Below are positions 46,798 through 51,230 of a stretch of 64,000 bases of DNA, in pieces. The notes beneath the pieces are model-generated. The model was not told the origin of the DNA, did not search any database, and saw only the letters and a program-made list of their open reading frames with translations. Source of the stretch: Ensifer aridi. GTDB taxonomy: Bacteria > Pseudomonadota > Alphaproteobacteria > Rhizobiales > Rhizobiaceae. The stretch spans positions 1 to 64,000 of the forward strand of contig NZ_LUAV01000031.1 in assembly GCF_002078505.1 (NCBI RefSeq), read 5' to 3'. Made by a program: the position numbers and the translations under genes. Every line of letters begins with the position of its first letter. Within the stretch, counting starts at the first letter, position 1.

Positions 46798-47412
46798 GGT
46801 TCTTCCTCACTTTGTGTGGTTCACGCGCCGTTAGACATGATGCCGCCATAGGCGGGTATGCGAACGAAAATGAAATGGTCGCCCGGCTCAGGGGCAATAG
46901 TTCTGGGTGTTGCGCTCACAGATGATGATGGTTGGGTTGTTTCCGCTGCCGGGCCAGCTTTTGGCATTTGCCCTGATTGCGGACGGCGGACCCGAAATTG
47001 GCATGGCTGGTCCGACCGAAGCCTCCAAGATCTGCCGGTCCAGGGCAAAACCGTAACGGTGAAGCTTCGGTTGAGCCGCTGGCGGTGCGCGCATCAGAAA
47101 TGTGAATGACAAACGTTCACCGACCGGCTGCCGACGATTGCCTCCCCTTATGCGCGCCGGACAAGGCGGGTCTCCGAGATTGTCGGTCTGCTCGGCCATA
47201 GCGCCGGCGGCCGTCCCGGCGAGCGCTTGATGCGACGGCTCGGCATGCCGGTCAGCGACGACACGATCCTGCGGCAACTGAAGCGGGATGCCGCGCTCGC
47301 TCATCGCGACGCCACGATCCGGGTTGTTGGCATAGATGATTGGAGCTGGCGGCGATCGTGGCGCTACGGCACGATGATCGTCGACCTGGAGCGCCGTTCG
47401 GTCGTCGACATC
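46798..47412 (+). mobile_element. Truncated ISL3-family insertion sequence
   Basis: The left end starts near 46798 (GGTTCTTCCTCACTTTGTGT). The transposase begins at 46858 with the zinc-finger pair CPDC and CAHQKC, then an in-frame TGA at 47107, then TFTDRLPTIA and the DDE part up to VVDIL at about 47412. There the element stops and an AraC fragment in another frame begins. So this copy has a premature stop and has lost its right half; it is inactive. A related end lies at 52905-52945. Confidence 0.85.
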
Positions 47413-47413
47413 C

Positions 47414-47737
47414 TTGGCGCTGATGCAGCAAAATCTGGACGCGCCACTCTCCGTTGCCGAGATGGCAAGACATCTGAACGTCGGCAAACGATCTCTCGAA
47501 CGGCATTTCAGGCAGGCACTTGGAATCTCGCCTCTCTCCGCGTTCATCGCAATGCGGCTCTCGCTCGCGCGGCACATGCTGGAAAACACCGGCAAGTCGA
47601 TTGCGATGATCGCAGTGGAAAGCGGCTTTTGTGATGCCTCGCACCTCAGTCGGATGTTCCGGAGGCGGTTCTCCAGTACACCACAGTATTTCCGCGCATC
47701 CATACGCCGATCAGCAAATGGCAAATCACCCGGTTAA
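47414..47737 (+). pseudogene. C-terminal fragment of a GlxA-type AraC regulator
   Basis: About 105 residues covering only the DNA-binding half: LSVAEMARHLNVGKRSLERH and IAMIAVESGFCDASHLSRMF. The sensor domain is missing because the sequence joins the ISL3 remnant at about 47412-47418. A free start (ATG at 47414 or 47423) exists, so a short protein could still be made, but no ribosome binding site is obvious. Best read as the remains of a regulator cut by the IS. Confidence 0.82.
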
Positions 47738-48006: not shown

Positions 48007-50982
48007 ATGACGAACATCGCGCAGATGCAGGAACAGCGACTGAAGGCACTCGAACTGACGAGGAATGGTGCGCCGAAGTTGCCGTCCAATCCGTTTTTCG
48101 GCGTCGGCCCGATCACCGATGCGACCACCGACGAAGTGGACAGCCGCCTGCGGCGCATCGCCTTCGACGCCTGGATCGAGAATACCTATCGCAAATTCGA
48201 CGACAGGGGCAACGACATCGGCGGCTTCACCACTGCCGAGATTTCGCGGAGCATGCACCGCGGCTATCCGGCAGACAAGATCCTGACCGACATGATGCGG
48301 GCGATCCATCGCTATTTCGGCTTTCCGAAGACAAACCGTATGGCCGTCGGGCTCGGCGGTGGCCACAGCGGCTTCACCGTCTGCGTCCAGCATCTGATGA
48401 ACGCGAACGACACTTCGCAACGCATATATGTCGACACCCCGCAGCCGGAGAGCGATCCGTCCAAGGCCGCCGGGTTCTTCCGCCAGTCCTGGGCCACACA
48501 GCTGATCGAGATGCAGCGCTTTGCCGAAAAGGGCTGCGAGAGCCGAATCCATTTCGCCGTTTCCGAAGGCGTGATCCCCACGGCCGCGGAGCTCTCCGGC
48601 CTCGGCGTCTCTATCTTCGTCGGTGTCGGTCACGAGACGACTGGCGCCAATACCTATACCAGTCGCGAGATCAGCGAACTCTTGAGCTGGCTGGACGGCG
48701 ACCCGGCAAACCGCCATGCGGTGTTCGATGCTACCTCGATGCTCGGCGCCATGCCGTGGGAGCCCGAACTGGTCGAAGCCGTGATGGCGAAGTGCTGCCT
48801 TTTCATGCCGTTCCAGAAGGCGATCGGCGGGATTTCGGGCTATTTTGTCGCCTCCTTCACGCCGCATGCCCTGGCATTGATCGAGAAGAACCAGCAGGAT
48901 CCCGCCTGGGCAATTCCGCGCCAGTTGAAGATCGCTCCGCCGATCGATCCGAGGCAGCCGTTTTCGGCCAAGCGCTCTGTTGATGCCGGGCCGTTCTACG
49001 ATGCCGCCGAAGACCGCATGCTTGGCGGCGTCATCAACACTTACAGCGCGCTTGCCTTTGCCGAGACCACCTTCGGCCTCTTGCAGTCGGAGGCCCGGGT
49101 CGGGTCGGTCGTCGATCTCAACCGCCGCTCTGCCAAAAATCGCAAGGTGATCGACGAGTGGGTCGCATCGCATCCGCTATTGTCGCTGACGGTCACCGAT
49201 GCCGAACGGCGCGGCGCGGCAGTGACGCTGCTCAAGGTCGAGGACCCAGGCATTACCGATCCAGACATCCACGCCCGCATCATCGCCCGTTCGAAGCAAC
49301 TGCTCGGGTATGAGGGAATTACTCATCCGAACGGCGAATACGAGCCCGGCCTCGATGCGGCCCGCTACGTCAATGCCTTCCCGGGCACGCCCGGCGACTA
49401 CCGCGCCTGGGTCGGCGGCATCCGCGAGCCGGAAGATGTCGTCGCGCTGCTGGAAAATCTGCAATACGCCTATCTGCGTGCCAAGATCGTCGTTCTCGAA
49501 GAGGAGTTGGCGAAGCAGGGCGTCACTTTCGAGGCTCCGGCGAAGGCCGACGGGCCCGTCCGCAAGGACGATCCCGAGCGCGCCTATACAGTGCTGATCG
49601 CCGATCTGGTCGGCCTGCGCTTCGGCGCTGACGGCCAGCCGGATCACAGCGAGATCAAGGCTTACATCGAGGACAAGGGCGGCGTCTTCCATGTCGGGCC
49701 GCTCGGCGACCGGTCCGCGCTCGAGAAGGGGCGCATCCACTTCTTCTACCAGCCGAACCTCAGCACGGAGGCGGAGATCCTACCGCAGACCGATAAGGGG
49801 CAGTACGATGCGCTGATCGCGGCGGCGTCATTCATTCCGAAGGCCTCCATATTCCCGCTCGGTGGCGTGCGCATCGGTGCAGGCACCGGCAATATGGGCT
49901 CGGCCTCCTGGGGCGGCGGTAACGGCGAGGGCGGCGAGGCGCCGCTCATGAACACGCCGGGCATCAACAGCCGCGCGACCGCCCAGATGGCAATGAAGGC
50001 GATCCTGAAGGTCGTTCCAGACCTGCCGGTCGACAGGCTGCACCGGATGGTCGCCGGGGGCGACTTCGATACCGGCCGCCAGCTCAAGGATTTTCCGACT
50101 GCCAAGCTCGAGGGCCGGAAGATTGCCATTCTCGGCTACGGCAACATCGGCCGCGAAGTGGCCAAGCTCGCCAAGGCCTTCGGCATGAAGGTGGCGATCT
50201 ACGCGCGCGAGCATCACAAGCGCTGGATCGACGCGGAAGGGTTCGAATATGCCGCAAGTCCGGTCGCAGCGGCGACCGATGCGGACGTGCTCTCCGTCCA
50301 TATCGGCCTTGGCCGCCTGGACGCGGCGACCGGCGTCTATTCCAACGCCGGAACCGTCGATGCGAAGGTGCTCGGCGCGATGAATGACGGCGCGGTGCTG
50401 GTCAACTACGACCGCGGCGAGGTGGTCGATGTCACCGCCCTCGATGAGGCGCTGTCCTCCGGCAAGATCGCGCATGCGGCGATCGACGCCGACCTCTTCA
50501 AGGACGCGGCGACCGGCAGGCTCAGCGGACCGATGCTTCCCTATCTGCCGCTCGAAGAGCGCCACAAGGGCAAGCTGGAGCTGCTGCCGCATGCGGCCGC
50601 TGACACCGACCATCCCTCGCGGGTGACCGGTGCGAAGCAGGCGGTCGATCAGGTCTTCGACGTCATCCGCTTCAAGTCGGTCACCAATCTCAAGGGCGAC
50701 CTTCCAGAGGGCTACGTGTCAGCCGGCAGCCGCACGCCCGCTGGCATCGGCCGAGTGACGAAGGGGGTGATCACCGAGGTCGGCGGCAAGGCGGAGCTCC
50801 TGGGGGAACTGCGGCAAACGTCGGAAAAGGTCGCGGCGATCCTGGGCGCGCTCTCTGGCGTTTCTGATCCGAACCACCGCGGCCGGATGATCGATCGCTA
50901 TACCGGCCTTCTCGTGGAAAGTGTCGACCGGCAGCGGGCGCTGTTAGAGCAGCTCGGTCTCTACGGGCCGGCGGAGGAGTAA
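48007..50982 (+). CDS. SerC-like aminotransferase fused to SerA-like dehydrogenase
   Basis: A 991-residue two-enzyme protein. The N half (about 1-500) resembles phosphoserine aminotransferase (PLP fold type I), with the likely PLP lysine in PFQKAIGG (about 272). The C half (about 530-990) is a D-isomer 2-hydroxyacid dehydrogenase with GYGNIGREVA (about 708-717), catalytic Arg in VNYDRGEVV and catalytic His in LLPHAAADTD (about 861). These match consecutive serine-synthesis steps in reverse gene order. Start ATG after GGCAGATC. Linker about 500-530. The real substrate is not proven. Confidence 0.85.
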   Translation: MTNIAQMQEQRLKALELTRNGAPKLPSNPFFGVGPITDATTDEVDSRLRRIAFDAWIENTYRKFDDRGNDIGGFTTAEISRSMHRGYPADKILTDMMRAIHRYFGFPKTNRMAVGLGGGHSGFTVCVQHLMNANDTSQRIYVDTPQPESDPSKAAGFFRQSWATQLIEMQRFAEKGCESRIHFAVSEGVIPTAAELSGLGVSIFVGVGHETTGANTYTSREISELLSWLDGDPANRHAVFDATSMLGAMPWEPELVEAVMAKCCLFMPFQKAIGGISGYFVASFTPHALALIEKNQQDPAWAIPRQLKIAPPIDPRQPFSAKRSVDAGPFYDAAEDRMLGGVINTYSALAFAETTFGLLQSEARVGSVVDLNRRSAKNRKVIDEWVASHPLLSLTVTDAERRGAAVTLLKVEDPGITDPDIHARIIARSKQLLGYEGITHPNGEYEPGLDAARYVNAFPGTPGDYRAWVGGIREPEDVVALLENLQYAYLRAKIVVLEEELAKQGVTFEAPAKADGPVRKDDPERAYTVLIADLVGLRFGADGQPDHSEIKAYIEDKGGVFHVGPLGDRSALEKGRIHFFYQPNLSTEAEILPQTDKGQYDALIAAASFIPKASIFPLGGVRIGAGTGNMGSASWGGGNGEGGEAPLMNTPGINSRATAQMAMKAILKVVPDLPVDRLHRMVAGGDFDTGRQLKDFPTAKLEGRKIAILGYGNIGREVAKLAKAFGMKVAIYAREHHKRWIDAEGFEYAASPVAAATDADVLSVHIGLGRLDAATGVYSNAGTVDAKVLGAMNDGAVLVNYDRGEVVDVTALDEALSSGKIAHAAIDADLFKDAATGRLSGPMLPYLPLEERHKGKLELLPHAAADTDHPSRVTGAKQAVDQVFDVIRFKSVTNLKGDLPEGYVSAGSRTPAGIGRVTKGVITEVGGKAELLGELRQTSEKVAAILGALSGVSDPNHRGRMIDRYTGLLVESVDRQRALLEQLGLYGPAEE

Positions 50983-50997
50983 CACCCGTTGAACCCC

Positions 50998-51230
50998 CCG
51001 ACGAGCGCCGCCGGTTTAGGACCTCGCTTTTTGATGCCGCCGTCGCCGCTGCCGACCCGGCAAAGGTGATCGCCGCCGGCGTGCCGCTGCGGCTCCTGCC
51101 GCCGGAAGAGCCAACGTGGCCCAAAAACTTATTGCTGAGGAACGGGACTCGCGAATCGAGAACAGTCCTCCGTGATGCGAGAGATGCTTTACCGGCAATT
51201 GTCCGGGTGATTCCGTCAGCGGCGGCGTGA
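50998..51230 (+). pseudogene. Remnant of a glycerate 2-kinase gene
   Basis: Just after the fusion gene a frame without a proper start reads FRTSLFDAAVAAADPAKVIA, the standard N-terminal helix of MOFRL-type glycerate 2-kinases (GckA/TtuD). The similarity is lost after about 30 residues and the frame ends at 51230. Glycerate kinase would process glycerate derived from serine/hydroxypyruvate, so it probably once formed an operon with the fusion gene. Confidence 0.65.

Follow-up and report, generated by a model that had tools for sequence, protein, structure and literature searches.

Fusion of a class V aminotransferase fold to a D-2-hydroxyacid dehydrogenase in Ensifer aridi: a probable route from serine through hydroxypyruvate to D-glycerate

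Does a single protein that joins a SerC-like aminotransferase to a SerA-like dehydrogenase make serine, or does it use serine for another purpose? The question is raised by a gene at positions 48007 to 50982 of the window, by which is meant the whole stretch of 64,000 nucleotides analyzed (positions 1 to 64,000 of contig NZ_LUAV01000031.1, assembly GCF_002078505.1) from the host, Ensifer aridi. The product is probably a bifunctional serine aminotransferase/hydroxypyruvate reductase, a fused variant of known serine-cycle chemistry. Computation revealed both folds, a recurrent link to glycerate 2-kinase, and a mutual exclusion, at the level of the locus, with a reductase-like gene beside malate thiokinase. 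The substrates, including the specificity for serine, are inferred, as are the direction, the cofactor and any hand-over of hydroxypyruvate between the two halves. The parts of the gene are as follows.

48007..50982, + strand: fused aminotransferase/D-2-hydroxyacid dehydrogenase gene, 991 amino acids from ATG, identified as an open reading frame with homologues
48007..49500, + strand: N-terminal half, residues 1-498, with a class V aminotransferase fold, recognized from its fold, conserved residues and weak NCBIfam SerC matches
48727-48729, 48817-48819 and 49402-49404, + strand: invariant residues D241, K271 and R466 of the N-terminal half
49567..50721, + strand: C-terminal dehydrogenase, residues about 521-905, recognized from its Pfam domain, fold and conserved residues
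50134-50151 and 50203-50208, + strand: GYGNIG loop (residues 710-715) and A733-R734 cofactor motif of the dehydrogenase
50413-50415 and 50590-50592, + strand: catalytic residues R803 and H862 of the dehydrogenase
50722..50979, + strand: helical C-terminal tail, residues about 906-991, with no match to an ACT-like domain

The 991-residue reading frame (+ strand) is real, intact and conserved. It contains no internal stop codon, and full-length relatives of identical layout, 61-95% identical, are present on 62 of 65 related contigs. The recurrence of this layout across many independent assemblies rules out a frameshift or assembly artefact. In comparisons with six relatives, both parts were under purifying selection, with ratios of nonsynonymous to synonymous substitution rates (dN/dS) of 0.07-0.15 for residues 1-498 and 0.08-0.23 for residues 521-990. 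The dN of the N-terminal half was lower than that of the C-terminal half in five of the six comparisons and equal in the sixth. An earlier note, made from the sequence alone, had described SerC-like and SerA-like enzymes in one polypeptide with their key residues kept, and this description was borne out: modelling found both folds, the layout is kept in relatives, and K271, the GYGNIG loop, R803 and H862 are all present, with K271 and the catalytic Arg and His invariant in alignments. The note also knew of no described enzyme of this layout. Likewise, searches of open-licence papers yielded no bacterial aminotransferase-dehydrogenase fusion in this order and no description of a bacterial aminotransferase-hydroxypyruvate reductase fusion. 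The annotated full-length plasmid records listed name the gene merely 'NAD(P)-dependent oxidoreductase'.

The C-terminal half matches the Pfam domain 2-Hacid_dh_C at residues 677-827 (E 1.4e-27, 96.7 bits, cut-off 25.1). Its nearest fold is phosphoglycerate dehydrogenase (PGDH) 1yba (Z 24.4, root-mean-square deviation [rmsd] 5.7, 321 residues aligned); phosphite dehydrogenase, glyoxylate reductases and others come within 1 Z unit of this score, a tie. The NCBIfam SerA/PGDH models gave 73.7 and 69.9 bits, below their cut-offs of 404 and 454, and no ACT domain was matched in the Pfam scan of the fused protein. Like the D-2-hydroxyacid dehydrogenases (2HADHs) SerA, GhrB/GRHPR and GHRC, this half possesses a Rossmann domain and the Arg and His of the catalytic triad, and R803 and H862 are invariant in all 17 dehydrogenase halves aligned. 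Unlike them, the fused family has longer loops, a conserved GTGNM-S-SW stretch and, in place of DVFE, the motif DAD[LIVM]F followed by K, V, S, A, R, T or E. The cofactor loop also differs. Where the second Rossmann strand ends, the fused family has A733-R734, whereas the SerA-like protein of the host has Asp, the residue expected of a SerA that uses NAD+. Alignments place Asn-Arg, a pair of the NADP type, at this position in 4DGS and 3WNV. The Ala-Arg in place of Asp suggests that the C-terminal half probably uses NADPH. Passages of one source state that the cofactor loop determines specificity and that Asp marks the use of NAD(H), that the superfamily's reductases work with NADH or NADPH, and that nearly all of its natural dehydrogenases, SERA listed among them, use NAD+ (PMC6303947).

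AlphaFold2 gave a full-length model with a predicted local distance difference test score (pLDDT) of 74.8 and a predicted template modelling score (pTM) of 0.56; because fold searches with the full-length model listed dehydrogenases only, the N-terminal half was folded separately (pLDDT 79.5, pTM 0.81). The nearest fold was phosphoserine aminotransferase (PSAT) 3vom from Mycobacterium tuberculosis (Z 25.3, rmsd 3.1, 352 aligned), tied with human alanine:glyoxylate aminotransferase 1j04 (Z 24.6, rmsd 3.2, 343 aligned), one of the alanine/serine:glyoxylate aminotransferases. The half thus has the class V aminotransferase fold with its pyridoxal phosphate (PLP) Lys and Asp, and K271 and D241 are invariant in 32 of 32 alignment rows. 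It had no Pfam match, 18 such halves scanned gave four chance-level families only, and its profile found nothing in the PDB at E <= 0.01. The NCBIfam SerC models NF002841 and TIGR01365 gave 52.3 and 42.4 bits, below their cut-offs of 477 and 448.2. With the M. tuberculosis SerC (2fyf/3vom) it shares the fold, the QK lysine, the Asp and an Arg aligned with that of GLRIW in the host SerC. In contrast, identity in the structural alignment is 18%, falling to 10-15% with the other phosphoserine aminotransferases listed, and the sequence alignment has gaps around 302-338 and 445-460. The substrate pocket of SerC contains phosphate-binding His/Arg residues. H84-R85 is invariant in the fused family, but the HYR region of the host SerC aligns with a gapped stretch, partly of low model confidence (457-462). 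Local hhalign comparisons with SerC and BhcA-like alignments were uninformative, the profiles being too shallow.

A partner for the dehydrogenase is indicated by its recurrent association with glycerate 2-kinase. Four genomes of one Rhizobiaceae genus encode an 819-residue protein in which a dehydrogenase 52-53% identical to that of the fused protein is N-terminal to a glycerate 2-kinase. In L146, the one of the four that was searched for domains, the kinase part exceeded the cut-offs for DUF4147 (E 1.1e-78) and MOFRL (E 3.1e-35) and gave 212 bits, against a cut-off of 550, for the glycerate 2-kinase model NF041176; on its strand, the upstream genes encode a DAO-family oxidoreductase and an amino-acid-binding protein. 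At another locus, L038, an intact kinase begins about 20 bp past the fused gene, 61% identical to the L146 kinase and also below the NF041176 cut-off (226 bits). Three stand-alone dehydrogenases (L151, L166, L167) have a kinase downstream on the same strand. Of 119 rows, a set that contains duplicates, truncated copies and four rows with less than 31 bp of downstream DNA, 15 have kinase-like DNA directly 3' of the fused gene, and the window is among these 15. They represent 10 places once identical alignments are merged, with L038 the one intact, and every one falls in a clade whose members share 89% identity or more with the window protein. Because the search used the L038 kinase DNA as its query, it would miss diverged kinases. 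At the protein level, a kinase was seen among the fused loci only at L038 (whole) and L017 (146 amino acids). The family is sparse, with two places in the 6.6 Mb host genome. According to passages of one source, MOFRL-class enzymes are glycerate kinases that phosphorylate D-glycerate, with no hydroxypyruvate reductase identified among them (PMC2063504).

The second line of evidence comes from a compact, single-strand operon of serine-cycle-type genes that ends in a BCCT transporter, located in the host on contig C41 (L139, 6610-13570 of the locus). It encodes a BhcA-like aminotransferase (598.9 bits, cut-off 650), a protein named malyl-CoA-lyase-like from its context (best model RipC, 184 bits, cut-off 375), the beta subunit of malate-CoA ligase (727.5 bits, cut-off 604), the alpha subunit of succinate/malate-CoA ligase (445 bits, cut-off 336) and a 2HADH best matched by the glyoxylate reductase model (307.6 bits, cut-off 455). 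The transporter is probably a glycine betaine carrier, as suggested by family scans made in relatives, where those of L021, L101 and L140 scored 638, 633 and 640 bits for the glycine betaine BCCT model (cut-off 650) and passed the general BCCT cut-off. At nine other loci the 2HADH is missing, with its neighbors leaving no space for it, and the fused gene lies downstream of the transporter. These loci span two clades of the fusion, 92-95% and 70-71% identical to the window protein. The same post-transporter site in different Sinorhizobium holds a fusion of the 70-71% clade in L051, L101 and L141 and one of 92-94% identity in L018, L021 and L140, as if one had been replaced by the other.

This pattern was surveyed by hand in 33 genomes of the host genus around matches to mtkA, the malate thiokinase beta gene, at E <= 1e-180. 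Twenty-eight of the genomes contained 29 mtkA loci. A 2HADH adjoined mtkA at six of these (G000, G744, G1046, G804, G748 and G1058-C196, the match in G748 being without the first 71 residues), and none of the six had the fused gene on the same contig. The other 23 loci were without the 2HADH; the fused gene lay within 12 kb in 18, and in four more it was found elsewhere in the genome (G1055, G1050, G752, G891). The exclusion has a Fisher p of 0.001, uncorrected for shared ancestry or contig breaks.

Together, the fusion to a kinase and the exclusion at the locus suggest that the C-terminal half is a hydroxypyruvate reductase. In the proposed reaction sequence, the N-terminal PLP domain would use serine as amino donor, with a keto acid (probably glyoxylate or pyruvate) as acceptor, and release hydroxypyruvate, which the C-terminal domain would reduce to D-glycerate, probably with NADPH. 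Glycerate 2-kinase, encoded by the next gene, by another fusion partner or elsewhere in the genome, would then form 2-phosphoglycerate. The earlier note had remarked that the aminotransferase comes first although it acts second. In the direction proposed here the aminotransferase acts first, and this odd order disappears. The predicted reactions are those of the serine-glyoxylate aminotransferase, hydroxypyruvate reductase and glycerate 2-kinase of the serine cycle, and part of the fused loci keep similar gene company, namely malate thiokinase, a malyl-CoA-lyase-like gene and glycerate 2-kinase. In the serine cycle the aminotransferase and hydroxypyruvate reductase are separate proteins. The fusion differs in being one polypeptide of two divergent families that score far under the curated cut-offs listed. 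The dehydrogenase part of this proposal is better supported than the aminotransferase part.

Several observations weigh against the proposal. The catalytic Glu of DVFE, the third member of the 2HADH triad and one on which the earlier note was silent, is not conserved. Near its varying position Asp827 and Asp829 are conserved and may be candidate substitutes, and passages of one source indicate that formate dehydrogenases deviate at this position too (PMC6303947). For the N-terminal half, no serine-glyoxylate aminotransferase model appeared among the 25 NCBIfam families listed, and the SerC matches were weak. The kinase link was not seen in most copies: 104 of the 119 rows showed no kinase DNA downstream, and near most fused loci neither a kinase nor a reductase nor a serine-cycle gene was seen. 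In the identity table, kinases near the fused gene resemble one another no more than they resemble those of the host, and no group specific to the fused gene was seen. At one mtkA locus (G1058-C137, in an 85% complete genome) neither the reductase nor the fused gene is present. Four of the six genomes with a reductase at mtkA (G000, G1046, G804, G748) carry the fused gene on another contig, and a 2HADH with 48% identity or more to the reductase occurs in all 33 genomes, so the two genes exclude each other at the locus but not across the genome. In the six loci that hold the whole start of the operon, the BhcA-like gene is kept beside the fused gene; the reductase is therefore what gets replaced, and the N-terminal half is no simple replacement of BhcA. 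Finally, two kinds of neighborhood are left unexplained by hydroxypyruvate. In a divergent group of six fused loci (L064, L067, L068, L069, L078, L080) the constant neighbor is an M20 amidohydrolase gene, directly convergent with the fused gene, after which come genes for an amino-acid ABC transporter (L069 and L068 were the two searched for families), and the stand-alone dehydrogenases L090, L091 and L094 are convergent with an aromatic amino acid lyase (PF00221), L090 and L094 also lying beside an MFS transporter and L091 beside a DAO oxidoreductase.

The alternative that survives best accepts the hydroxypyruvate reductase and assigns the N-terminal half to another amino acid or direction, such as the conversion of hydroxypyruvate to serine, or to another donor. 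Consistent with it, the operon keeps its own BhcA-like aminotransferase, the N-terminal half forms its own family outside Pfam and has the lower dN in most comparisons, and neighborhoods vary between clades. It is nevertheless unlikely, given that the fusion to a likely hydroxypyruvate reductase and the recurrent proximity of glycerate 2-kinase make hydroxypyruvate the natural shared intermediate.

Less likely again is a fused SerC-SerA that makes phosphoserine from 3-phosphoglycerate through phosphohydroxypyruvate. The nearest folds, 3vom and 1yba, would fit it, but for each, other superfamily members score within 1 Z unit, a tie, and although SerC and PGDH models are among the best NCBIfam matches, they fall far under their cut-offs. 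There is also a precedent, the oomycete PGDH-PSAT Ps142688, which fuses the same two superfamilies; as described in passages of its source, it differs in being eukaryotic, in having the dehydrogenase first and in being assigned to phosphorylated serine biosynthesis (PMC2705460). In opposition, SerC exceeded its family cut-off in all 20 relatives searched, the host included. Among these, all 12 genomes of the host genus keep SerC, 11 of them together with the fusion, so the fusion is hardly the serine-biosynthesis pair. On host contig C14, moreover, a 2HADH of SerA length, a putative SerA, directly follows SerC. The accessory distribution described below, with its many plasmid records, the glycerate 2-kinase partner, the Ala-Arg cofactor motif and the unmatched ACT domain also count against serine biosynthesis. 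Of the two consecutive activities envisaged in the earlier note, the fused folds and a possible shared intermediate are supported, while the SerC plus SerA pathway through phosphohydroxypyruvate is not supported.

An unrelated pair of 2-keto acid and 2-hydroxy acid, with the kinase and thiokinase links a coincidence of rhizobial plasmid gene traffic, would suit the very variable neighborhoods and many different sites of the gene but is the least probable explanation, because the link to a sparse kinase family recurs as a fusion, as a neighbor of the fused gene, as remnants and as a neighbor of stand-alone dehydrogenase genes.

The fusion is accessory. It is scattered through the Alphaproteobacteria, mostly the Rhizobiaceae, with full-length relatives in Sinorhizobium/Ensifer, Rhizobium, Shinella, Mesorhizobium, Paracoccus, Labrys, Aestuariivirga and others, including several metagenome-assembled genomes (MAGs). 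In a sample of the phylum, 8 of 398 genomes, the host included, matched either part at E <= 1e-60, all of them from the host family. Within a sample of that family, 42 of 297 genomes had a relative at E <= 1e-100, divided between the full fusion (21, one copy with a stop and one cut short) and the dehydrogenase part alone (21); at least three had both the fusion and a stand-alone dehydrogenase, two candidates being scored per genome. In the host genus the fusion occurs in 29 of 33 genomes. It is often plasmid-borne: of 58 plasmid records with a match, 31 span at least 80% of the query at a single place. No phage gene matched among 50,697 phage records at E <= 1e-20, and two IMG/VR contigs that carry the fused gene are perhaps pieces of plasmid or chromosome.

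The aminotransferase half is nearly always fused. Its profile found three matches in 385 genomes of the class, the host included, all within frames of about 1000 amino acids. The exceptions seen are a Paracoccus MAG copy without the dehydrogenase, a broken Paracoccus copy and a truncated Ensifer adhaerens copy (three records). The first (L079:8001-9698) consists of the aminotransferase half and a short tail similar, by eye, to the helical end of the fused protein. The last (L087:11998-13746), in three plasmid records, is annotated as a hypothetical protein, of 582 amino acids in the one opened. On a quick tree of the C-terminal half (78 rows) the fused label needs four changes, and one fusion followed by losses cannot be told apart from repeated fusion events.

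In the window itself, remnants of two genes flank the fused gene.

50994..51077, + strand: decayed 5' remnant of a glycerate 2-kinase gene, 12 bp past the stop codon, 85.7% identical over 84 bp to the L038 kinase gene
47411..47704, + strand: remnant of an AraC-family, GbdR-like regulator, 78.6% identical over 98 amino acids to the C-terminal end of the L048-type regulator

In L048, L053, L019, L020, L026, L070 and L022 an intact copy of the regulator precedes the fused gene by about 0.2-0.26 kb, with that of L048 scoring below the GbdR cut-off. With both remnants in place, the fused gene of the window seems to belong to a regulator-fusion-kinase unit that has decayed, a picture in which there is a gap, as no locus with all three intact was seen among those compared. 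By eye, positions 46888-47634, next to the regulator remnant, resemble a decayed transposase.

No neighborhood constant over all fused loci was seen, and the links are clade-wise only. Four stand-alone relatives (L164, L165, L168, L091) have a DAO-family oxidoreductase directly upstream on the same strand, a possible further source of 2-keto acid. In Paracoccus aminovorans (L086:9043-11601), the gene directly upstream of the fused one is annotated as an FAD-dependent oxidoreductase and has a GcvT/SoxA-like second half. On a contig filed as a SAR324 MAG and possibly misbinned (L065:104-1324), a second protein, which weakly matches class V aminotransferases, is encoded about 60 bp upstream of the fused gene.

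In conclusion, the protein may represent an undescribed class in which one polypeptide deaminates serine, reduces the resulting hydroxypyruvate with direct hand-over and has supplanted the separate reductase of a serine-cycle operon that rhizobia couple to betaine uptake. Glycine, together with methyl groups derived from betaine, would then be assimilated via serine, glycerate and 2-phosphoglycerate. This wider claim is offered tentatively. If the proposal is correct, two uncharacterized families would together supply a bifunctional serine-to-glycerate enzyme, and a function would be assigned to a gene present in 29 of the 33 host-genus genomes. Resemblance to SerC and SerA should then not be taken as a sign of serine biosynthesis. 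For the rhizobia, it would suggest a route similar to the serine cycle that is tied to betaine uptake, with the fused enzyme as a step in the assimilation of small carbon compounds.

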